36,600 nucleotides of DNA, from positions 1 to 36,600 of IMG/VR virus record IMGVR_UViG_3300035698_000784; one strand, given 5' to 3'. This document shows, one piece after another, positions 4,947 through 21,989 of the stretch. The notes under the pieces are model-generated. The model saw only the letters and a program-made list of their open reading frames with translations. It ran no database searches and was not told the origin of the DNA. A program made the position numbers and the translations under genes. The stretch's first letter is position 1, and each line of letters opens with the position of its first letter. The DNA comes from a virus.

Positions 4947-5831
4947 ATGCATAAGATTGAGCAATACATTCAAGTACCATTAGAAGACTTAGACAATAGA
5001 ACCGCAGAGGAATTTGACGGTCTAATTGAAGAGTTTGGCGAAAGCTGTAAGAGTGCCTTGAGGGATTGCTTACTAAGCAGTCGTAAGGATGAACCCTTTA
5101 GAGTTCGTATGAGCAATATAGGTAAACCCTTACGGCAGCTTATGCTAGAGAAGAAACATGGACGTTCTCCTATGGATGCGGATATGAAACTCCGTATGAC
5201 CTATGGCTATATCTGGGAGTCCTTACTAGTATTTCTAATAAAGGCAGCAGGATTACCAGTAGAAGATGGCAAAGAAGTTTCCCTAGATATAGTCCATGGG
5301 GAGAATAAGACTAAGGTTAATGGCACTTATGATATTGAGATTGACGGTATGATCTATGATATCAAGTCGGCTAGCCCATGGTCCTTTGATAATAAGTTTA
5401 CTACCTTTGAGGGCTTAGAAGATGATGATCCCTTTGGGTATGTAGGTCAGGGCTTTGGTTACAGCATAGCATCCAAGAAACGTTTTGGTGGCTGGGTTGT
5501 AGTTGATAAATCTGATGGGCGTATCAAAGTAGTAGAGGTTCCACAACTAAATTATAAACAGCTAGCCCAGAAGTACTTAAATATTTTCAGGCATAAGCTA
5601 AATGAGATAGGCTCTGACCATGAGCCACCACCATGTGACGGTGTTATTGATGAGAAGTTCAATAGGAAAGTTACTGGTAATAAAATACTTGCAGGAGGTT
5701 GTAAGTTCTGTGACCATAAGTACAAGTGTCACCCAAAACTACAATTCAAAGAGTGTCTTAATAGTAAAGCCCAGACTAAACCGTACAAACTATACACCCA
5801 CATTGAGGAACCTGAAGTAAATGAAGATTAA
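4947..5831 (+). CDS. Cas4/RecB-like PD-(D/E)XK exonuclease with Fe-S cysteines
   Basis: The 294-residue product has Glu91 (GYIWESL), Asp129 in GTYDIEIDG, and Asp138/Lys140 in YDIKSA. These are the catalytic elements of the PD-(D/E)XK nuclease fold. The C-terminus carries CKFCDHKYKC (Cys252, 255, 261), the CxxCx5C pattern that with an N-terminal Cys (34 or 41) ligates an Fe-S cluster in Cas4/AddB-like nucleases. Such phage enzymes process DNA ends for recombination-dependent replication, or degrade host DNA. The gene overlaps nrdA by 11 bases. The catalytic fold is confident; the Fe-S cluster is inferred from the cysteine pattern. Confidence 0.9.
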   Translation: MHKIEQYIQVPLEDLDNRTAEEFDGLIEEFGESCKSALRDCLLSSRKDEPFRVRMSNIGKPLRQLMLEKKHGRSPMDADMKLRMTYGYIWESLLVFLIKAAGLPVEDGKEVSLDIVHGENKTKVNGTYDIEIDGMIYDIKSASPWSFDNKFTTFEGLEDDDPFGYVGQGFGYSIASKKRFGGWVVVDKSDGRIKVVEVPQLNYKQLAQKYLNIFRHKLNEIGSDHEPPPCDGVIDEKFNRKVTGNKILAGGCKFCDHKYKCHPKLQFKECLNSKAQTKPYKLYTHIEEPEVNED

Positions 5832-7668
5832 AAAAGTATATAAACGTGATGATCTGTTGGACCCATATGCTATAAGCATACTGAAGGATCGTTACATGGT
5901 AGACGGTGAGGAGTCCCCTCAAGATGCTTTCGCAAGGGCCGCAGTAGCCTTTGCGGATGATGAGGCACACGCTCAACGTCTTTATGATTACGTGAGTAAA
6001 CTATGGTTTATGTTTGCAACTCCCGTACTTGCCAATGGCGGTACTAAGAGGGGGTTACCCATTAGTTGCTTCTTGAACTATGTAGGAGACTCACGAAATT
6101 CCATTCTTAAACACTACGAAGAGAATGGATGGCTTGCCTCATCAGGTGGAGGGTTAGGTGGTTACTGGGGTTCTCTTAGAACTTCAGGGACTAAAACTTC
6201 AACTGGTGGAGAGTCAACAGGGATGATACCATTTCTTAAAGTGGTTGATGATATAACCCTAGCGTTCCGTCAAGGTGGAACTCGTAGAGCAGCGTATGCT
6301 GCGTATCTTGACATTGACCATCCTGAGATCATAGAGTTCCTCAACATGAGGAAACCTACAGGTGGTGATGTTAACCGCAAGTGTCTAAACTTACATCATG
6401 GTATCAACATCACTGACAAGTTTATGTCCCTCATTGAGGAATGTACGCTTAACCCAGAGGTGGACGATACATGGGAATTAATTGACCCCCACACAAAGGA
6501 TGTAAGCGAGACTGTATCAGCTAAAGACTTATGGCAAAACATATTGGAACTTCGGGTCCAAACTGGAGAACCATATATCCACTTTATTGATACAACAAAT
6601 AGGTTCCTACCCGACTGTCAAAAGGCTCTAGGACTTAAGGTGCACGGAAGTAACCTTTGTAGTGAAATAGTACTCCCTACAAATGACGAGAGAACAGCCG
6701 TGTGCTGCTTATCATCACTCAACCTTGAAAAGTATGATGAATGGAAGGACACCACTATTGTTCAAGACTTAATAAGAATGCTTGACAATGTGCTAGAGGA
6801 GTTTATTAAGATGCCTCATATGCACCCAAGTGGTAAAGATGCGATTCGTAAAGCTGTCAATTCGGCTGTACGTGAAAGGAGTCTGGGCCTAGGTGCTATG
6901 GGCTTTCATGCTTATCTACAGGCTAATCAGATTCCATTTGAGTCTGAGGAAGCTGTTAAGATAAACAAGGAAATGTTCCAAGGTATACGCACCATGGCTG
7001 AAAGGGAATCAAAACGATTAGGTGTCGAGAAGGGGGTAGCTCCAGACTTCGGTGACACTGACCCTGTGAATGCTAAAAGAAATGTTCACCTTATGGCTAT
7101 TGCTCCCAATGCATCATCCAGTATTATCTGCGGTAATACAAGTCCTTCAATAGAACCATTTAATGGTAATGGCTTTGCTCAGAAGACTGAGAATGGTACT
7201 AACATATATAAGAATAAGTTTCTTGATAAGTTACTATCATCTAAAGGAATCTCTAAAGCTAACCAGACAAACATTTGGAAACAGATTACGTCAAACAATG
7301 GTTCCGTGGAAGATGTTGAGTGTCTCACTGAGGCAGAAAAAGAAGTGTTTAAAACTGCATTTGAGATCAGTCCTTTCTGGATAATTCGTCATGCTGCTGA
7401 TAGGCAGGTGTACATTGATCAAGCACAATCAGTTAATCTATTCTTTAGAAACCCAGTAGACCTCAACACTCTCCACAAAGTACACCTACATGCATGGAAA
7501 AGTAATCTTAAGACACTTTACTATTGTCGTAGTATGAAGTCTAGTCGTACTGAGAATATCGGCACACGCTTCAACAGACATGAGATTACTCCTAAGGAGT
7601 TTAAGCAAACCCAATTTAAAACTGTGTTACCAAATGGAATGGAGATTGGTTGTGTCGGATGTGAGTAA
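5821..7668 (+). CDS. nrdA: class I ribonucleoside-diphosphate reductase, alpha subunit
   Basis: Reduces ribonucleotides to deoxyribonucleotides together with NrdB. The 615-residue protein has Cys83 (PISCFLN) and Cys295/296 as candidate redox cysteines, and NLCSE (Asn278, thiyl-radical Cys280, Glu282) as the active-site triad. YY (567-568) serves radical transfer, and the C-terminal CVGCE (Cys611/614) is re-reduced by thioredoxin or glutaredoxin. No N-terminal ATP-cone is present, so the enzyme should lack dATP feedback shut-off, common in phage RNRs. The start overlaps the nuclease gene. Downstream lie an HNH relic and an nrdB interrupted by an amber codon. Confidence 0.97.
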   Translation: MKIKKVYKRDDLLDPYAISILKDRYMVDGEESPQDAFARAAVAFADDEAHAQRLYDYVSKLWFMFATPVLANGGTKRGLPISCFLNYVGDSRNSILKHYEENGWLASSGGGLGGYWGSLRTSGTKTSTGGESTGMIPFLKVVDDITLAFRQGGTRRAAYAAYLDIDHPEIIEFLNMRKPTGGDVNRKCLNLHHGINITDKFMSLIEECTLNPEVDDTWELIDPHTKDVSETVSAKDLWQNILELRVQTGEPYIHFIDTTNRFLPDCQKALGLKVHGSNLCSEIVLPTNDERTAVCCLSSLNLEKYDEWKDTTIVQDLIRMLDNVLEEFIKMPHMHPSGKDAIRKAVNSAVRERSLGLGAMGFHAYLQANQIPFESEEAVKINKEMFQGIRTMAERESKRLGVEKGVAPDFGDTDPVNAKRNVHLMAIAPNASSSIICGNTSPSIEPFNGNGFAQKTENGTNIYKNKFLDKLLSSKGISKANQTNIWKQITSNNGSVEDVECLTEAEKEVFKTAFEISPFWIIRHAADRQVYIDQAQSVNLFFRNPVDLNTLHKVHLHAWKSNLKTLYYCRSMKSSRTENIGTRFNRHEITPKEFKQTQFKTVLPNGMEIGCVGCE

Positions 7669-7765
7669 TCTGAAACGTTTCTGGGACAAAGTAGATATGG
7701 GTATTATTGATGTATGCTGGGAGTGGCTTGCGGGTAAACATACAAGAATGGCGTATACAAAATAA
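7661..7765 (+). pseudogene. remnant of an HNH homing endonuclease (N-terminal fragment)
   Basis: From a GTG at 7661, overlapping the end of nrdA in another frame, 34 codons encode KRFWDKVD, then CWEWLAG, then a stop. FW-x-KVD followed by CWEW is the characteristic N-terminus of small phage HNH endonucleases, which normally continue for 100-150 more residues to the HNH catalytic motif; none of that follows before nrdB at 7790. The fragment therefore looks like the stump of a deleted free-standing homing endonuclease, a frequent guest of phage RNR genes. The similarity is short, so a chance match cannot be excluded. Confidence 0.6.
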
Positions 7766-7789
7766 TAAAGTTAAATTAGAGAGTTATAA

Positions 7790-8761
7790 ATGAGCTTAAT
7801 TACAAAAAGAAGTAACTACAAGCCTTTTGAATACCCTTGGGCGTACGAAGGGTACAAGAAACAAGCTAAGATGCATTGGATTCCTGAAGAAGTCCCACTA
7901 CATAATGATGTACGGGATTGGCACTAGAAGCTTGATGACTCTGAGCGTAACCTACTGACACAAATCTTTAGGTTCTTCACTCAGGCAGACGTTGATGTAG
8001 CTAAAGGTTACCTTGAGCATTATATCCCAGCCTTCGGGGGCAACCCTGAGGTAGCTATGATGCTGTCAACCTTTGCTTCAATGGAAGCCGTACACATTGA
8101 TGCCTATAGTCTGCTATTAGATACTATTGGTATGCCTGAGACAGAGTACAGTGCCTTCTCCCAGTACAAAGAAATGGCTGATAAACATGAATTTCTTGAA
8201 AGTGTGTCTTCAAACACCCCCAGGGAAATGGCGAAAGCCTTAGCTATCTTCTCAGCATTTGGTGAAGGACTTCAGTTGTTTAGCTCATTTGCTATTCTAT
8301 TGAACTTCCCAAGGATGGGCAAGATGAAAGGTATGGGACAAATTGTGACCTGGAGTATTCTAGACGAGACTGTACACTGCCAATACATGCTACAGCTATT
8401 CAGGGAGTTCCTGTCAGAGAACTATGAAGTATGGGACGATGATCTTAGAGGTGAGATTTATGAAGCCTGTAGGACCATGGTTGACCTTGAAGATCAGTTC
8501 ATTGACTTGGCGTTTGCCCAAGGAGACGTTGAGGGGCTGTCTAAGGATGATGTCAAGTTATACATCCGGTACATTGCTGACCGTAGGCTACTTCAATTAG
8601 GTCTCAAGACTAACTTCAATGTCAAGAAGAACCCTTTACCATGGCTTGAAGAAATGCTCAATAGTACTGAACATGCTAACTTCTTTGAGACTAGAGTAAC
8701 GGAATACGAAAAGAACCCAACAGTAGGAGCAATACAATGGGGAGAGAAACTACATGGCTAA
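7790..8761 (+). CDS. nrdB: class I ribonucleotide reductase beta subunit, interrupted by in-frame TAG
   Basis: From ATG 7790 the frame reads as an NrdB/R2 protein of 323 residues, but codon 46 (7925-7927) is TAG. Before it: MSLITKRSNYKPF to VRDWH; after it: KLDDSERNLLTQIFRFFTQ. The di-iron ligands are Asp67, Glu99, His102, Glu159, Glu193 and His196, and the radical tyrosine is Tyr106 (HIDAY). The next ATG, at 8057 (Met90), would give a 234-residue protein without Asp67, which should be inactive. The function of the locus is certain; whether it is a dead gene, read-through, suppression or a sequence error is open. TAG is a normal stop elsewhere in the window. Confidence 0.92.
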
Positions 8762-8975
8762 AATATCAATACTAATTGAAGACACAGAATCAGGTGAGTT
8801 AGACTTACGGTTCACTTGTGATACCCCATTACCTGAAGATGGTAGCTCACCCACAGACGCTCAAGTGTTTGCTGGTAGGTTACATGAGTCTATCCTACAG
8901 GTTATGGAGAATGGTGGGGAGTTTGAAGAGGTAACATCTGAGCTACCTGATGCAACTCCTAAGTTCATCATTTAG
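8754..8975 (+). CDS. 73-aa acidic hypothetical protein
   Basis: Overlaps the end of nrdB by 8 bases. The product begins AKISILIEDTESGELDLRF, suggesting a beta-hairpin, then an acidic segment and a helix (AGRLHESILQVMENGGEF). It lacks the CxxC of glutaredoxins, so it is not the RNR reductant. Proteins of this look recur as unassigned small phage genes. The 154 bases that follow (8976-9129) hold no convincing gene. Confidence 0.72.
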   Translation: MAKISILIEDTESGELDLRFTCDTPLPEDGSSPTDAQVFAGRLHESILQVMENGGEFEEVTSELPDATPKFII

Positions 8976-12853: not shown

Positions 12854-13055
12854 TGTGCATAACTGGGAAGGTATAACCAGACTTGATATACCTGTAGAGA
12901 GAGTTATTGAGGGTGCTGAGCACATAGGGCTAGACTCTATAGTGATCTTAGGTCATACTAGGGATGGACAAGAGTACTTTGCAAGCTCTCAAGCGGACGG
13001 TGGTGATGTGTTATGGCTACTTGAACGTGCTAAGGCTCAACTAATAGCACAATAA
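12846..13055 (+). CDS. 69-aa conserved phage hypothetical protein
   Basis: Overlaps the end of thyX (ATGGCTGA). The N-terminal part carries IPVERVIEGAEHIGLDSIVILG, followed by DGQEYFASSQADGGDVLWLLERAK. The 'YFASS...DGG-VLWLLE' ending is one I associate with small conserved proteins found in many phages and some prophages. Its function is unknown; the fold appears to be a two- or three-stranded sheet with a C-terminal helix. Confidence 0.75.
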   Translation: MADVHNWEGITRLDIPVERVIEGAEHIGLDSIVILGHTRDGQEYFASSQADGGDVLWLLERAKAQLIAQ

Positions 13056-13066
13056 TGGAGAGTCCC

Positions 13067-13216
13067 ATGAGATACTTATGTATACTATTAATGACTACAG
13101 GTTGTAGCACAAGTTATGATTGGGATACCTTAAACTATGTAGGTGTAGGGGGTAAGGTGTGTAGTGAAAGCCCAGCCCCCCATGGGGCACCTACAAATGT
13201 AGTATGTGAAGAATAA
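13067..13216 (+). CDS. 49-aa small lipoprotein
   Basis: The ATG at 13067 has GGAGAG upstream. The product begins MRYLCILLMTTGC, a short signal sequence with a lipobox (LMTTGC) and lipidated Cys13. A small, neutral mature part of 37 residues follows, with two more cysteines (Cys32, Cys47) that could form a disulfide. It is the last plus-strand gene before the convergent terminator. Early-expressed small phage lipoproteins often block receptors against superinfection (as Llp of T5 does), which is a possible role. It is unlikely to be the o-spanin, because one is encoded with the lysis genes on the other strand. Confidence 0.65.
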   Translation: MRYLCILLMTTGCSTSYDWDTLNYVGVGGKVCSESPAPHGAPTNVVCEE

Positions 13217-13247: not shown

Positions 13248-13273
13248 AAAGGGGACCCCAAAAGGTCCCCTTT
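13248..13273. terminator. bidirectional rho-independent terminator between convergent operons
   Basis: A perfect 10-bp stem (AAAGGGGACC / GGTCCCCTTT) around the loop CCAAAA. It has T-rich sequence after the right arm (TTTAATTTT) and A-rich sequence before the left arm (CAACAAAAA), so it can terminate transcription from both sides. It lies 31 bases after the last plus-strand gene and 20 bases beyond the last minus-strand stop. Confidence 0.92.
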
Positions 13274-13293: not shown

Positions 13294-13449
13294 CTAGCGT
13301 TTAGCTGGACCACCTTTAGACAGGCCACTTGTCGCAGGGGCTGAGCCACCGTTAACGATAGTGTCACCGATCTTACCATCAAACTGGTTATCGGCTACTG
13401 TACCTGTGGCAACACCTATTGCGAATACCGCGAGAACTGCTAATACCAT
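13294..13449 (-). CDS. 51-aa small exported or membrane-anchored protein, stand-alone gene
   Basis: The ATG at 13449 follows AAGGAG at ideal spacing. The product begins MVLAVLAVFAIGVATGTVA, a hydrophobic stretch that could be a signal peptide or membrane anchor without any basic residue before it. A Gly/Ser/Ala-rich tail follows, ending KGGPAKR. It is the only gene between the consensus promoter at 13492-13520 and the terminator, so it should make its own abundant short mRNA. I do not recognise it; a small holin regulator, a virion peptide or a late membrane peptide are all possible. The frame runs from a strong ribosome-binding site to a TAG. Confidence 0.75.
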   Translation of the reverse strand: MVLAVLAVFAIGVATGTVADNQFDGKIGDTIVNGGSAPATSGLSKGGPAKR

Positions 13450-13466
13450 AATAATCTCCTTGTTAG

Positions 13467-13484
13467 TCTTGAATCATTTCAAGA
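13467..13484 (-). promoter_or_regulatory. perfect 7-bp inverted repeat at predicted transcript start
   Basis: TCTTGAA / TTCAAGA around a 4-base loop, read on the minus strand. It begins 7 bases after the -10 box of the promoter at 13492-13520, so it would form a hairpin at the very 5' end of the message. It could stabilise the RNA, as T7-type 5' hairpins do, or act as an operator for a dimeric repressor. Confidence 0.6.
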
Positions 13485-13491
13485 TATACCC

Positions 13492-13520
13492 ATTATAACA
13501 TAAACCTAAGGGTTTGTCAA
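13492..13520 (-). promoter_or_regulatory. perfect-consensus sigma70 promoter (late strand)
   Basis: On the minus strand: TTGACA (13520-13515), a 17-base spacer ending TGT, and TATAAT (13497-13492). Both hexamers are perfect, with an extended -10 TG. It begins one base after the o-spanin stop and points at the 51-codon gene. Confidence 0.92.
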
Positions 13521-13521
13521 G

Positions 13522-13761
13522 CTACATTTTAACTAAATTAGCCCTACATGCTCTAATGGTTTTACGAGTTAGTTCGTAATCTTTAACTGCTTGTATTACT
13601 TTTGTGTGCTCCTCAGAATCCCTAAGGTCTTGTAATTCCTTAGCTAATTCCAATTGGTATTCATCAGAATAATCAAAAAGTAAGCCACAATCGACATTAG
13701 AAGTCACCGTCCCGCAAGCTGTCAATAGTATCATCAATGGTAGTAGGATTAAGTAATTCAT
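13522..13761 (-). CDS. o-spanin (Rz1-like outer-membrane lipoprotein)
   Basis: The 79-residue protein starts with a signal sequence and lipobox, LLTACG (lipidated Cys16). A helical, charged periplasmic part follows, with Cys25 and Cys71. The gene starts inside the i-spanin gene in the +1 frame, a 65-base overlap, the arrangement of Rz/Rz1 pairs. GAGGT precedes the ATG. O-spanins join i-spanins across the periplasm to fuse inner and outer membranes in the last step of lysis, so the host has an outer membrane. At 79 codons it is normal in size, though without the usual proline-rich segment. Confidence 0.82.
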   Translation of the reverse strand: MNYLILLPLMILLTACGTVTSNVDCGLLFDYSDEYQLELAKELQDLRDSEEHTKVIQAVKDYELTRKTIRACRANLVKM

Positions 13762-13909
13762 CTATTACCTCTTGTTTGTACTCATTTTGGGCTTCGAGTA
13801 CCTCTTTTTGTTGCTTTAGGGACTTGTTCTGACTTGATAAATACTTCAGGTAGAGGAGCAGACCTGTTAAGCCTATTCCACTACCTAGAAGTAAATATAT
13901 CGTACTCAC
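13697..13909 (-). CDS. i-spanin (Rz-like)
   Basis: The GTG start at 13909 overlaps the holin stop (TAGTG). The 70-residue protein has one N-terminal membrane segment (about 4-23) followed by a strongly predicted coiled coil (LSSQNKSLKQQKEVLEAQNE, 24-43, continuing to about 52) and an acidic tail. This is the i-spanin layout: inner-membrane anchor plus periplasmic coiled coil. Rz proteins are often longer, so this is a compact version. Holin, endolysin and o-spanin genes adjoin it. Confidence 0.82.
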   Translation of the reverse strand: MSTIYLLLGSGIGLTGLLLYLKYLSSQNKSLKQQKEVLEAQNEYKQEVIDELLNPTTIDDTIDSLRDGDF

Positions 13910-14088
13910 TACTTAACTCCCTTGTTGAGGGCAACTGTCTTAAGAGCCTTCTGGACAAGCCCAAGGACTTTATCATCAGCAGTAGTAGGTGTTAACTTAA
14001 CGATAACTGAAGCCGCCGTTACAATTGCAGTAAAACCTACAACGATATCAGCCCAGTTACCAAAGATACTTTGGATAAATTCAATCAT
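13909..14088 (-). CDS. small holin candidate, 59 aa
   Basis: The ATG at 14088 directly follows the endolysin stop (TAA-ATG), with GGAGG inside the end of the endolysin gene. The product has one hydrophobic segment (about residues 13-31, ADIVVGFTAIVTAASVIVKL), then TPTTADDKVLG, and a basic amphipathic C-terminus ending NKGVK. Phage proteins with this TPT-x-DD pattern beside endolysins are commonly annotated as holins or holin-like. With one membrane segment it would resemble a class III or pinholin-type protein, but direct evidence is only its position and hydrophobicity. Confidence 0.72.
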   Translation of the reverse strand: MIEFIQSIFGNWADIVVGFTAIVTAASVIVKLTPTTADDKVLGLVQKALKTVALNKGVK

Positions 14089-14775
14089 TTAAACCTCCGT
14101 TACTATACTAGGGGCCTCTTTTACTTGAGACAACCGAGATTTCCAGCCTTTGCCGAATTTCCCCCAGTCACTAAGACCCTTGTATAAAGATAAACGCCTT
14201 TTCAATATAGCTTCCCGTGTATCCCCAGCGTCGTAGGAATTGAGAGCATTCAAGGTGTTATTGCCTAACTTGCCATCTACTTTAATAGTGGAGCCTAGGT
14301 CATTTAACGCCCGTTGAATTACTTTAGTCATACCATGTATACCATGATTGACATTACCATCAAACACTAAATCCTGGATTAGCAAAGGGGCCTTGTGGAC
14401 ACCCGCATCATTCCAGTACTTCTGTTTGTATATTCTAATAGCTTCAGCTTCTTTAAGTTCCTTGAGGATACCTTTAGTAGCTTGTGGGTAGAACCCCTGT
14501 AGCGTGAACAGTGTGATACCATACTTAGTAGGTGTCCTACGGCCATTCTCAACGTGTTCAGTGTACTTAGAGCCGCCCTCCAGCCTTAAAGTTCGTGCTA
14601 TGACTATCTCTTGGAGCTTAGAGACTGCTATATTCCTGATGTTAGGGAGGTACTCCTCAAGCAAGCTAGGGGCATACATTTCCTCCTGTACCTGTTCAGT
14701 AACTACAGGTATCTCTGGGGGTATATCCATGAAAAACATTTTAAGCCTATTTAGTAGTTTTCTTAGGTATTCCAT
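14089..14775 (-). CDS. endolysin, GH108-type muramidase with C-terminal peptidoglycan-binding domain
   Basis: The catalytic domain carries LRLEGGSKY (EGG with the likely catalytic Glu), then TKYGIT, AIRIYKQKYWNDAG and DLVFDGNVNHG, typical of the glycosyl hydrolase 108 family. The C-terminal half, with VIQRALNDLG and DGKLGNNTLNAL, matches the small peptidoglycan-binding domain that accompanies it. There is no signal sequence, so it would need the holin to reach the wall. The start is uncertain: ATG 14775 has AGGAG 12 bases upstream, a GTG at 14802 would add nine residues, and all options overlap the upstream gene. Confidence 0.92.
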   Translation of the reverse strand: MEYLRKLLNRLKMFFMDIPPEIPVVTEQVQEEMYAPSLLEEYLPNIRNIAVSKLQEIVIARTLRLEGGSKYTEHVENGRRTPTKYGITLFTLQGFYPQATKGILKELKEAEAIRIYKQKYWNDAGVHKAPLLIQDLVFDGNVNHGIHGMTKVIQRALNDLGSTIKVDGKLGNNTLNALNSYDAGDTREAILKRRLSLYKGLSDWGKFGKGWKSRLSQVKEAPSIVTEV

Positions 14776-17700
14776 CTTTTTCTCTAGCTCCTGTAAATTC
14801 ACCTATTTGTCTTGCAATACCTCTAAGTAACTTGGTCTGTGGCGCGACATCGTATTGGTCTGTCCATATGTCCCCTAAGACATCCTGTTCAAGCTCAAGC
14901 TCATTGAGGGCTTCTTCTTGTATCAATTGGATCTCAAGACGTACTTCATCAATACGTTTACGTAACTCTGGGTCACCTAGTAATTCTTTTTCAGGTGTTG
15001 TCTCAGTTGAAGTGCGTCTATTAGGGGAATTAAGTCTACTCAATTCATCATAATAGTTCTTGATACGCTTTGTAGCAGGTTCAATGATTGTGTCACTTAT
15101 ACGTATAAGGTCACCATGTTTATCTGCATACTCATTAGCTTCCTTGTAGGACGAATCTGAGCCAGTCTTTTCGGCATTAGTTTGTTTCTGTTGAAGTGTC
15201 TGAGTAAATTCTTTTAGGGATGTAGCTATGTTATCAAAGTTGTTTCTAGCCCCACTCTTAGGTACATCTGATTTAAACCCAGGTAAGTCACCAACAAAGG
15301 GTGTCTTTGCTTTATCTATTTGAGGACGTTCCTCACCAGTTATCCGAGCTACTATCATATCTGACATAGCTAAAGCGGCTTCACCCACGTAAGGTAATAA
15401 ATCCTTGAACACGTACTCCGCAATAACAGGGTCTATACCTGTAGCCCTAGCAAATTCTATGGCAGCCTTAGAGGTAACTCCAGGTCTTCCTCTATCTTCC
15501 GCAGCTATCTCACTGTTTAGAAGATATTCAGACTGGATATTACTACCAAACTTACTAGTGTTAGAAGCCGCAGCAACACCAGTATCTATACCTGTAGGCA
15601 GTAGACTTGCGGGTCTTGTTTGACCTACCACGGAATTAGTGGCCATAGATAACAACTGAGGGCCTGTCATACCGCTTTCACGTAAGGCCTTCTGTAATGC
15701 AGGGTTAGCCTTAACAGCTTCTTGGGTGTGCTCATCGGCAAGCGTTAATAATTTTGTGGCGCTAGCTGTGAGGGCCTCATCAATAACTTGTCCACCTACT
15801 TTATTCAGGGGGGCAAACATCTGGAAGGGGCTAGGGACAGGCACATAATCTGACTGCTTAGCCGTAGCAGGGTCTCCATAATATACAATAGTCATACTAT
15901 AGCGTTGCCATGCAGGGAGCTTATCCACAAAGGGTATACCATTCTCATCCACATACTGCTTATTGTGCTGATATATACCTGCTTGAGCTAATGACCCTAA
16001 CGCTACTACTTTAGCAATCTGTTTAGGTCTATACCGTACAGCAGCAAAATCTTTACCCATACCATTCATCATGGACTTCATAAAAGCAGTAGAGGCTTGA
16101 TATTGCCTAAAGCCAGCACTATTACCTGCCTCAGTATATTTAACGGCCAGGGACTTAGCAGCACTTAGAGCACCTTGCTCAGCCTCATCGACAGTCTTAC
16201 CCATCTTGAGGAACTGTTCTTTAACATCCTCATAGTATCTTGCACGAGTTGATAAATCACTTATTTCAGCAAAGTCTTCAAGGGTCTTTACAATTGGCTT
16301 AGCAGATTTACCATTAACCCAACTTGCAGCCTTTTTAATATCCCCAACTTCATCATAGAGGTATTTACTTTTAGCTATCTTAGCACTTAAGTCTTCCCCA
16401 CGCTTCATCATGGTGCCTTTTTCAAGTAGGCCTGGGGATATATTTTGTATCTTAGCTCTATACTCAGGGTCACTGAATAGCTTCTTAGTCACCTTTAATT
16501 GCTTGTCAAGTCTGAATAAGTTTTTATTACCTACAAGTTTAGCATCAGCAGTATAAGCGTAGCCTAAGCCCTCTTTGACCCACGACTTAGCCGAGAAGAC
16601 AAAGTTGAGGGTTGTAGCTAATTCACGGCGTACTTGAGCAGCTTTCATAAAGCCATCACCTAGTTTGCCGCCTTTAGTTGCAGCGTTTAGGTATGGTCTT
16701 GTGATTGTCTTCATCATCTCAGGGTCCGTCACCGTAAGCTTAAGTCGTGTTCCATCTATAAAGACTGATACATTACCAATTTCTCCGCCTTCCCTTAGTT
16801 CACCTGCAAGAGGTGTGATGTCTTTGGACTCAATCATTTTAGGGGACTTGTCAGACTTAGCTCTTTTAATGGCAGCTAGTACATCTGATTTACTTTCCCT
16901 AAAGATGGCATTAAAGCCTGCTTCATCGGTGTGTTCTAATAAATAATCTAATACTGCTACACGATCTCTATTTACCTGAGCAACCCTAACAACACCTTCC
17001 ATGTCCTTTAGGGTGTTCTCTACTGGGTCACCAGTGAAATCTCTGTCACTCCCTGTACGAGCTTTAAGGGCTGTATTAGGTTGCGATGTACCACCACTAA
17101 AGTCTTTATCTAGGTCATAAGTTTCTAACTCACGTTTAGATGATAAGTAATACGGACGACCAGTCTTAAGGTTTTTAGCTTCTGCCTTAGATATTAAGTT
17201 GGCACTCACCCGCACATCAATAAGATGTTGAGATAACTTACTCATGTTCTCTAGGTACTTAGCTTTATCTGGGTCAGCCTTAGCAGCATCAAAGATAGCT
17301 TGAGCCTCTTCTTTAGACATAGCTACGCGCTCACCCCCACGGTTTACGTAGGCTTGGTAAGTTGGTTTGCCTGCTTGTAAGTCGTCAAGCTTACCTTGAG
17401 CCGTATTAAATTCACCAGCAGTCTCGGCAGCGTCAGCCTTAGTGGTTAACTTAGCTTGATTAGTGGCATTTAAGGCATAATCATCAAGGGCGTTGGCAGC
17501 TAATGATATTTCATTGGTATCTTCAATAGATATACCAGCTTCCCTAGCTTCTCTTTGGATGCGTACGTAAGGTTTAACCTGTGTATCAGCCACTAGGCGA
17601 CCTTTAGCTGGGTCCCATTTCTTAATATACGTAGCGGCACCATCTTCGGCACCAATAATACCTACACTCTCATTCTTTAGGTTTACCCCACGCTCATTCT

Positions 17701-18943
17701 TGATACGAGCAAGTGCTATATCCCCTATGGTGTTATCCCCAGAGAAATATACGTCTCCATTCTTCTTCGAGTACGCCCTTGAGATAGCCTGTAGAGGGGC
17801 TAATTCATTAGTGTAATTATTACGTACCCTAGTAAGCTTAGAGCCTAGTATTTTGGTAACTTCATCCCCAGTTAGGGCAGTTCCAGTATCACTTGTGGCT
17901 CTTTTACTAGCACCTAGTACATCCTTAGTGTCCTCTGCTACTAGAGCACCAGTTTGGGCACCTACAAGGGCTGTATCAGATTCATTTAGGGTAGGGTCAT
18001 ACTTCTTAAATATCCTCTCAATAGCATCATCAACTTGTGACTCTGATAGAGTTTTAGATAAGTTAGTACGTATAGCCGCCTCTACTTGATGCGCTGGTAC
18101 ACCTTTCTCTAGTGCTTCTACAGCCACTCCATCTACGAGGTCTTTTGATTTAGCTTCAACAACCTTAGACAAGTCTGTAAAGTGCGCATCAGTTCCGGGA
18201 ATGTTATTTTGGAGTTTCTTTATATCTTCAGCAACCCCCATAAGAGGCTCTTGAACTTCATCTACCTTCGTAGCTATATCACGGATAGCTTTAGATTTAC
18301 CTATAACACGAGCCGTCTTAGCAGCCCCCATAGGAGCTATCATAGCCCCAGCTACATCTAGCTGACCAGCAGGGGTCCCTGTCTGTCTCTCTAGGAAGTT
18401 GTTACCCGCCATAATAGGTCCCATAACCATAGACCCACCAGCTTGAGCTACACCAATAGCTCTACTAGCACCCCCTTTAAGGGTACTCATAACAGTTTCT
18501 CGGAAGGTCATGTTAGGCTTTTCAGGTTCTTGGTCCATACCAAGCATACCTTCAACACCTTCTTTAGCCTCTGATTTGGCGTACTCCCAAGCTTCTCCAG
18601 GAAATCTTAGTATTGAATCTACTAAAGGTTCATCTCCATCTGTACGTCTTTGAGCATCACTATTGGCTTTGCGTTGAACACGTTCTTCCTCCGTAAGTTG
18701 TCTAGGTATACGAGAGTCTTGAGGTACTTTAGGGCTTGTGTCTTTACTAGCTTCTGGTGCAGGAGTCGGGGCAGTTACAACTTCTTGTGGCACATCAGGA
18801 TTTTGGGTATGGGGACCCTCAAAGATGTCTTTTACTTGACTATCAGGTTGACTATTTAGGTGATTATATATTTCATCAATCTGTTCAGGGGTTGTGCCTT
18901 CATCCACCTCTACAGTGACACCATTATCAAATTCAATTTCCAT
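14747..18943 (-). CDS. large internal virion / DNA-ejection protein (1,398 aa)
   Basis: The largest gene in the window; its start overlaps the previous stop (TAATG). The first 150 residues are Pro/Glu/Gln-rich and low complexity. Next come a Gly/Ala-rich segment with glycine-zipper features (about 155-215) and long helical regions. A C-terminal third shows ATTLNFVFSAKSWVKEG and SDLSTRARYYEDVKEQF, with AEQGALSAAKSLAVKYTEAG downstream. This last part resembles the LPD38-type segment common in very large podovirus internal virion proteins. Such proteins are ejected with the DNA and build the periplasmic conduit. I see no lysozyme-type catalytic motif. The function is inferred from size, position and helical content. 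Confidence 0.75.
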   Translation of the reverse strand: MEIEFDNGVTVEVDEGTTPEQIDEIYNHLNSQPDSQVKDIFEGPHTQNPDVPQEVVTAPTPAPEASKDTSPKVPQDSRIPRQLTEEERVQRKANSDAQRRTDGDEPLVDSILRFPGEAWEYAKSEAKEGVEGMLGMDQEPEKPNMTFRETVMSTLKGGASRAIGVAQAGGSMVMGPIMAGNNFLERQTGTPAGQLDVAGAMIAPMGAAKTARVIGKSKAIRDIATKVDEVQEPLMGVAEDIKKLQNNIPGTDAHFTDLSKVVEAKSKDLVDGVAVEALEKGVPAHQVEAAIRTNLSKTLSESQVDDAIERIFKKYDPTLNESDTALVGAQTGALVAEDTKDVLGASKRATSDTGTALTGDEVTKILGSKLTRVRNNYTNELAPLQAISRAYSKKNGDVYFSGDNTIGDIALARIKNERGVNLKNESVGIIGAEDGAATYIKKWDPAKGRLVADTQVKPYVRIQREAREAGISIEDTNEISLAANALDDYALNATNQAKLTTKADAAETAGEFNTAQGKLDDLQAGKPTYQAYVNRGGERVAMSKEEAQAIFDAAKADPDKAKYLENMSKLSQHLIDVRVSANLISKAEAKNLKTGRPYYLSSKRELETYDLDKDFSGGTSQPNTALKARTGSDRDFTGDPVENTLKDMEGVVRVAQVNRDRVAVLDYLLEHTDEAGFNAIFRESKSDVLAAIKRAKSDKSPKMIESKDITPLAGELREGGEIGNVSVFIDGTRLKLTVTDPEMMKTITRPYLNAATKGGKLGDGFMKAAQVRRELATTLNFVFSAKSWVKEGLGYAYTADAKLVGNKNLFRLDKQLKVTKKLFSDPEYRAKIQNISPGLLEKGTMMKRGEDLSAKIAKSKYLYDEVGDIKKAASWVNGKSAKPIVKTLEDFAEISDLSTRARYYEDVKEQFLKMGKTVDEAEQGALSAAKSLAVKYTEAGNSAGFRQYQASTAFMKSMMNGMGKDFAAVRYRPKQIAKVVALGSLAQAGIYQHNKQYVDENGIPFVDKLPAWQRYSMTIVYYGDPATAKQSDYVPVPSPFQMFAPLNKVGGQVIDEALTASATKLLTLADEHTQEAVKANPALQKALRESGMTGPQLLSMATNSVVGQTRPASLLPTGIDTGVAAASNTSKFGSNIQSEYLLNSEIAAEDRGRPGVTSKAAIEFARATGIDPVIAEYVFKDLLPYVGEAALAMSDMIVARITGEERPQIDKAKTPFVGDLPGFKSDVPKSGARNNFDNIATSLKEFTQTLQQKQTNAEKTGSDSSYKEANEYADKHGDLIRISDTIIEPATKRIKNYYDELSRLNSPNRRTSTETTPEKELLGDPELRKRIDEVRLEIQLIQEEALNELELEQDVLGDIWTDQYDVAPQTKLLRGIARQIGEFTGAREKDGIPKKTTK

Positions 18944-20714: not shown

Positions 20715-21965
20715 TTAGTTTCCTCCTAGAAGTAGACTTGTAACAAACGAACCTGCACTTGAAGCAAAATTATTAGTACTGCTATCGGCTGCAATCTGGC
20801 CATTATTAGCGGCTACTGCAAGGTTGAATTGTCGATTACGCTCATTCTCAGATGCTTGGAATACCCAAGAAGCCTCATCCCGCCACTGTTGCCATAGTTG
20901 ATCTTGGGCAGTAGCTGATAGGTTGTATCTATTCTGAGCGTTTGTTTGGTTGGCAGAGTTAATAGCCGCAGTGTTCTCTGTGTTGATATTCCTACGCCAT
21001 AGGACGTTAGATTGTTCAATAGCAAAGGCTGCTTGGGCGTTAAACTGTTCCCTAGCGAATGTTTGTTGGGCATTAAACTGATCTACAGCAGCCTGTTGTT
21101 GTGCATTGAACTGCCCCACGTTGATACTATTAGCAGCATTCGTAAGGTCAATCTGGTTCTCTTGACCAGTGTTGAAGATACTCATAGCCTGTAGTCTATC
21201 TGCATTCTGGGTTTGAATGTTAGAGACTAAGGTAGCCATAAATTGTTGTGTTTGTGCCTCAGAAGAAGCATTAAATTGCCTAGAGGCATTCGTAGCTGCT
21301 CGATCGGTAAGTAAACCCTGCTGACGATTCCTAAGGTTCTCAAAGGACATCTGTTGACGGTTTGAGAGATTCGTTAGGTCCATCTGGAAGTACGTAGAGG
21401 CATCTTGTGCTGCAATAGGAAATGCAGACTGTTGGACAGCCTCTGTGATAGCCATAGCACCAATTGATGATGCTCCCATCCCTCTGGCAGCTAGTACGTC
21501 CTCAGCAGCCCTTACAGCGCCTTGTGCCCATTCAGGTACTTGACCATTCTGTGTTTGATCATATAGGCTTGATAATTGTCCCTGAACTGTACTTAAAGGG
21601 TTTACGGTACCTTGTTCTGCTACGCCCTGAGCAGCGTTATTGCCCACTAAAGAGGGGTCATACTGTCCTGTAGTAGGGTTAATATACTGTAGGGGCACGT
21701 TTTGGTCCACTGCAGTAGCTGTGCCAGTGTTAGCAGTGACTCCAGGGGTGTTTACGGCTGTTGTAGCTACTTGTTGCCCATTAGGGGCTAAACTAGTATT
21801 AGCCAACGAAGGGTCCATTAGTTGACCCGTAGCCTCTAAGGTAGCCTGATCCGTAGCTAACAACGTGGGGTCAAACTCTGACCCTGCAGGTAGCGTTGGT
21901 TGGGCCACTTGCGTAGCTAGATACTGATTTAATGGTAACCCTTGTGGGTCTGTAGTAGTTGGCAT
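20715..21965 (-). CDS. internal virion protein with 11-residue helical repeats (416 aa)
   Basis: First gene of the promoter at 21990-22018. I chose ATG 21965; a TTG at 21974 would add three residues but sits only about 9 bases from the predicted transcript start. The first 130 residues are Pro/Gln/Thr/Asn-rich and probably extended. The next part (about 140-215) has QGAVRAAEDVLAARGMGASS. From about residue 275, units of 11 residues (QFNAQQQAAVD, QFNAQQTFARE, QFNAQAAFAIE, then looser copies) run for at least six turns, a hendecad coiled-coil pattern. Related marine podovirus proteins are ejection or internal-core proteins; the role here is inferred. Confidence 0.75.
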   Translation of the reverse strand: MPTTTDPQGLPLNQYLATQVAQPTLPAGSEFDPTLLATDQATLEATGQLMDPSLANTSLAPNGQQVATTAVNTPGVTANTGTATAVDQNVPLQYINPTTGQYDPSLVGNNAAQGVAEQGTVNPLSTVQGQLSSLYDQTQNGQVPEWAQGAVRAAEDVLAARGMGASSIGAMAITEAVQQSAFPIAAQDASTYFQMDLTNLSNRQQMSFENLRNRQQGLLTDRAATNASRQFNASSEAQTQQFMATLVSNIQTQNADRLQAMSIFNTGQENQIDLTNAANSINVGQFNAQQQAAVDQFNAQQTFAREQFNAQAAFAIEQSNVLWRRNINTENTAAINSANQTNAQNRYNLSATAQDQLWQQWRDEASWVFQASENERNRQFNLAVAANNGQIAADSSTNNFASSAGSFVTSLLLGGN

Positions 21966-21989
21966 ATTATTCAACCTATATTAACTAAC

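Follow-up and report, generated by a model that had tools for sequence, protein, structure and literature searches.

A 51-codon gene on the minus strand of an HMO-2011-like podovirus fragment lies within a compact unit that has its own consensus promoter, a perfect hairpin at the predicted transcript start and an intrinsic terminator. This cassette architecture is well supported. The function that we infer for the peptide is tentative: the unit, which closes the late operon, may be a moron-like single-gene cassette for a single-pass inner-membrane peptide. This peptide would act on the envelope, possibly by excluding superinfecting phages; we favour this reading at well short of even confidence.

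The stretch of DNA analysed (36,600 nucleotides, hereafter the window) represents a fragment of the genome of an HMO-2011-like podovirus, with a portal protein approximately 41–47% identical to those of HMO-2011-type Roseobacter, Pelagibacter and Puniceispirillum phages. Its nearest relative is the sister phage G001, whose major capsid protein is 80% identical. A comparison of HMO-2011-type phages describes them as a dominant marine phage group and reports integrase genes in only some of their subgroups (PMC9038755).

Control signals and genomic setting of the cassette

The sigma-70-type promoter of the 51-codon gene (13492–13520, minus strand) matches the consensus at 12/12 positions, with TTGACA at 13520–13515, a 17-bp spacer, TATAAT ending at 13492, and a TG preceding the -10 element, which is therefore of the extended type. 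The window has two 12/12 promoters, this one included, against a mean of 0.043 such sites per window in 300 Markov-1 simulated windows. The second (22018–21990, minus strand) precedes a 419-aa gene on the late strand (20715–21974), and is kept in relatives, scoring 12/12 in G001 and 11/12 in another near relative, G007. This conservation supports 12/12 sites as real promoters in the phage group; since the site lies before a late-strand gene and is kept in both relatives, a 12/12 promoter alone does not imply early timing. A 12/12 promoter also lies inside a coding gene upstream of a MazG-like gene (L122 6337, minus; L109 10261, plus), and these intragenic promoters of G001 and G007 apparently occupy the same place.

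From the promoter spacing, transcription is predicted to start at 13485. A perfect 7-bp inverted repeat with a 4-nt loop (TCTTGAA-ATGA-TTCAAGA, 13484–13467, minus strand) would thus begin at position +2 of the transcript. The stem alone is worth -5.6 kcal/mol and the 20-nt piece carrying it has a z-score of -4.35. The 46-nt leader containing the hairpin has a z-score of -0.39, a fold no better than that of shuffles; the hairpin is therefore energetically modest, and what makes it rare is the perfection of the repeat. In the 36.6 kb, inverted repeats of this type (perfect, 7 bp, loops of 3–8) have four starts at three places, namely position 6337, the terminator and the 5' hairpin, the latter two flanking the 51-codon gene; among 12-nt windows, 0.1% include a start of this type. 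The promoter, the hairpin and the terminator of the gene all exceed chance. A stem of at least 6 was found at 12 of the 389 promoter-like sites (10/12 or better) across 890 kb, the present hairpin counted in, and the promoter-hairpin architecture is therefore no general rule of the phage group.

A hairpin at the very 5' end would shield the message from 5'-end-dependent decay, and stabilisation by 5'-terminal stem-loops is the subject of titles on the ompA and papA leaders cited in PMC3997798. As in those leaders, the stem would begin no more than about a base from the 5' end, as predicted, and is followed by a free ribosome-binding site, which is unpaired in the fold of the 46-nt leader; unlike them, the stem is modest at -5.6 kcal/mol, and the 5' end is predicted from spacing. 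Alternatively, the palindrome could be a repressor operator rather than an mRNA stabiliser, making the cassette switchable, an addition that could be attached to any reading of the peptide and that we regard as improbable. The perfect 18-bp palindrome covers the predicted start region, and its half-sites TTGAA/TTCAA differ by one base from the FNR-type half-sites TTGAT/ATCAA. However, the window contains no second copy of the palindrome with fewer than 3 mismatches, and the other 12/12 promoters examined have no such hairpin downstream.

The intrinsic terminator (13248–13273, minus strand) has an 11-pair stem spanning 13273–13248 with an energy of -18.4 kcal/mol. It reads as terminator-like on the plus strand too, and lies between convergent gene clusters, the plus-strand early genes converging on it. 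A small lipoprotein-like gene on the plus strand (13055–13216) converges on the same terminator.

On its other side, the cassette adjoins the lysis genes. The -35 element starts one base past the stop of an o-spanin-like lipoprotein gene (13522–13761, minus strand; lipobox in the sequence), which makes the cassette the final gene of the late operon as well, with one terminator common to both. The PHROG matches of the o-spanin-like gene are weak, Rz-like spanin being reached only at E 0.44; the gene is 36.5% identical to its positional counterpart in G001 and overlaps an i-spanin-like gene (13697–13909, minus strand; PHROG Rz-like spanin, E 0.003). Further upstream on the minus strand lie a 59-aa holin candidate (13909–14088), proposed from position and a single hydrophobic segment only and matching PHROG families of unknown function, and the endolysin gene (14089–14802; PHROG endolysin, E 1e-29; Pfam Glyco_hydro_108 and PG_binding_3). 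In the window the endolysin overlaps a 1398-aa gene as a separate gene (14089–18943); in G001 (L002 603–5615) and G007 (L109 12936–17996) it is fused to the end of the corresponding large protein, the fused proteins of the two near relatives having 1670 and 1686 aa.

These data bear out the consensus promoter, the perfect 7-bp inverted repeat at the expected start and the strong terminator that a sequence-only reading had described, although the terminator lies just beyond the segment (13294–13520) that it assigned to the unit. That reading had also called the gene stand-alone and isolated, which overstates the case, as it abuts the o-spanin-like gene and ends the late operon.

The 51-aa peptide and a probable homologue

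The gene (13294–13449, minus strand) runs from an ATG at 13449 to a stop at 13296–13294, and a Shine-Dalgarno sequence, AAGGAG (13456–13461), is situated 6 nt before the ATG. Its codon log-likelihood is +0.372 bit per codon, compared with 0.12 to 0.42 for ten other small genes of the window, and the values of the five alternative frames over the gene are negative. The 51-codon frame is a real gene, codon usage supporting that frame alone. A single-sequence AlphaFold2 model of low-to-moderate confidence (mean pLDDT 70.5, pTM 0.32) predicts a hydrophobic helix at residues 2–23, which contains GxxxG, a short helix at residues 26–32, and a loose C-terminal tail.

A tblastn search of the peptide against 50,697 phage records returned three weak matches, all at E 0.9 or above, which were attributed to chance and were not of HK97 gp15 type, and searches of PHROGs, Pfam, NCBIfam and PADLOC brought no significant match; in the first three of these libraries a holin-family match was among what was absent. 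PDB matches to actinohivin (E 7e-4, residues 12–36, with no stretch passing alone) were judged chance matches and set aside because residues of the peptide helix align to a soluble lectin. The peptide family is absent from the searched libraries; the kind of element itself is already known in other phages. The ribosome-binding site and the frame with a hydrophobic N-terminus noted in the sequence-only reading are confirmed, and so is its remark that the peptide resembles nothing recognised.

When the peptide was compared with 11 viral records, one matched, that of G001 (E 0.004 in the 51-kb record), with 45% over about 30 residues. The matching 46-aa frame (L018 1593–1453) is probably homologous, on the strength of one match in a short and compositionally simple stretch. 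Both peptides have the same N-terminal helix and the motif GxATGxxxDNQ[FY], sharing M1, V5, L6, A10, G12, A14, T15, G16, D20, N21 and Q22, together with G28, T30, I31, K45 and K50. Among 20,000 block-wise shuffles that kept the helix and tail composition, 1 attained the local score of 57, a probability that becomes about 0.01 once the 171 G001 frames compared are allowed for; an unrelated alanine-rich frame scored 52.

The G001 homologue is preceded by AAGGAG and begins with ATG. Its place is in the early operon, where it is flanked on one side by the ribonucleotide reductase region and on the other by the homologue of window gene 8754–8975, and non-late expression therefore fits both phages. 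No strong promoter before it and no such hairpin occur in the sequence read, and its 3-kb locus contains no terminator-like site; a promoter-like site matching 9/12 positions lies some 70 bases upstream, but sites of that class are no commoner there than in shuffles. That G001 keeps the frame without these control signals favours a protein over a functional RNA.

The type of reductase differs among the near relatives, being NrdA/NrdB-type in the window (5821–8761) and in G007, and class II-like with an apparent intein in the same operon region of G001 (L019 3225–6179). The NrdB-like gene of the window (7790–8761) has an in-frame TAG near 7925, and the G007 copy (L109) is uninterrupted. General recoding is unlikely because other window genes end in TAG; a sequencing error, a mutation or a split gene is possible.

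Searches for further family members yielded none beyond G001. Two peptide-pattern scans of viral contigs returned 105 and 120 stretches and no relatives; the G001 homologue carries the pattern of the second scan yet went unconfirmed, so the confirmation step was overly stringent for a query of this length. The motif GxATGxxxDNQ occurred in 30 stretches of viral contigs, among which only the G001 copy was a short hydrophobic frame of this kind, and with F/Y in 16 stretches of genome contigs, none of them such a frame. A looser motif pattern gave 119 stretches, with no further family member among the 80 matches listed. Among 40 candidates drawn from short hydrophobic frames in related-phage loci and the window, only the known homologue had the motif, and a two-row profile run over 24 records recovered only G001, itself part of the profile. 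A pattern combining the promoter with the 5' part of the hairpin had no matches, the gene was not in the gaps after ribonucleotide reductase in HMO-2011 and CRP-1, and a viral scan with the endolysin alignment refound only G001 and G007. A relaxed-motif filter of 240 loci gave three extras, two near-identical longer proteins and one of 66 aa, which were judged analogues.

The same junction in relatives

The cassette is absent from the same junction in both near relatives read (2/2). In G001 there is no such gene between the o-spanin-like gene and the convergent MazG-like gene, a 33-aa opposite-strand frame being left out of account; in G007 two small lysine-rich genes take its place (L109 12309–11790, minus strand). 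The place after the o-spanin-like gene is therefore variable among these three genomes, at least one of them incomplete, between which gain and loss are indistinguishable.

Candidate roles of the peptide

A phage moron is a single-gene cassette with its own promoter and terminator. The present unit resembles one, at the sequence level, in having one short gene with a promoter and terminator of its own and in being absent at the same site in near relatives; it differs in that its terminator is common to the cassette and the late operon. Host sigma-70 RNA polymerase would transcribe the cassette independently of the late operon, probably from soon after DNA entry, and constant expression, with the 5' end protected and a good ribosome-binding site, would ensure a steady supply of the membrane peptide. 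Anchored in the inner membrane by its single GxxxG-containing helix, the peptide would act on the envelope, and it may interfere with the DNA entry of a second phage in the manner of HK97 gp15, to which its sequence is unrelated. Inner-membrane exclusion proteins, including HK97 gp15, are discussed in PMC10883804, and a title cited there calls gp15 a moron element. The likeness to gp15 lies in an inner-membrane product, here predicted from the helix only; the difference is that tblastn against the 50,697 phage records found no sequence relationship. The words 'superinfection' and 'promoter' are both absent from the searched text of the HMO-2011-type comparison (PMC9038755). Overall, envelope roles fit the peptide best, lysis-timing, host-protein and virion roles being alternatives, and superinfection exclusion would be its most likely single role, with about a third of our confidence.

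The peptide could instead modulate a host inner-membrane protein, such as a transporter, a protease or a respiratory complex, which we consider possible but rather doubtful. Many small single-pass proteins modulate host inner-membrane proteins, and the small size, the single predicted helix and the early-operon location of the G001 homologue are consistent with such a role; no database search, however, suggested a specific partner.

An antiholin or pinholin-like peptide tuning the adjacent lysis cassette is an unlikely identity for the product. The gene directly follows those for the endolysin, the holin candidate and the spanin-like proteins, and its product, like holins, antiholins and pinholins, is predicted to be a single-helix membrane peptide, with GxxxG, adjoining that cassette. 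Unlike them, it has no match to any holin family in PHROGs, Pfam or NCBIfam, and its G001 homologue is located outside the lysis cassette, in the early operon; moreover, both G001 and G007 have lysis genes with no peptide gene beside them. The lysis-timing role suggested in the sequence-only reading is weakened by these observations and keeps a small share of our belief.

That the product is a minor virion or ejected protein is very unlikely: the gene is the last on the late strand, but it has its own promoter and its G001 homologue is on the early strand. Least probable of all is a functional small RNA with an incidental frame, as had also been proposed, since the better-than-shuffled fold of the whole transcript (z -2.4, the terminator contributing much) and its two perfect hairpins are set against codon usage that supports the frame, the lack of an Rfam match, and a similar frame kept in G001 without promoter, hairpin or terminator, the reverse of the broken frame and kept promoter that the sequence-only reading had named as its refutation.

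A broader form of the membrane-peptide reading, speculative and unlikely in its entirety, is that the gene founds a small new family of inner-membrane peptides in phages (GxATGxxxDNQ[FY]). Such genes would move from one operon to another, early or late, within HMO-2011-like phages, and this one would have gained its promoter-hairpin-terminator shell on arriving at the convergent junction, so that infected cells would show a constant envelope effect, for instance the exclusion of rival phages. Being self-contained and apparently strongly driven, the membrane-peptide gene is a cheap and testable candidate for how HMO-2011-type phages alter the host envelope; otherwise, it would be an ordinary accessory gene.
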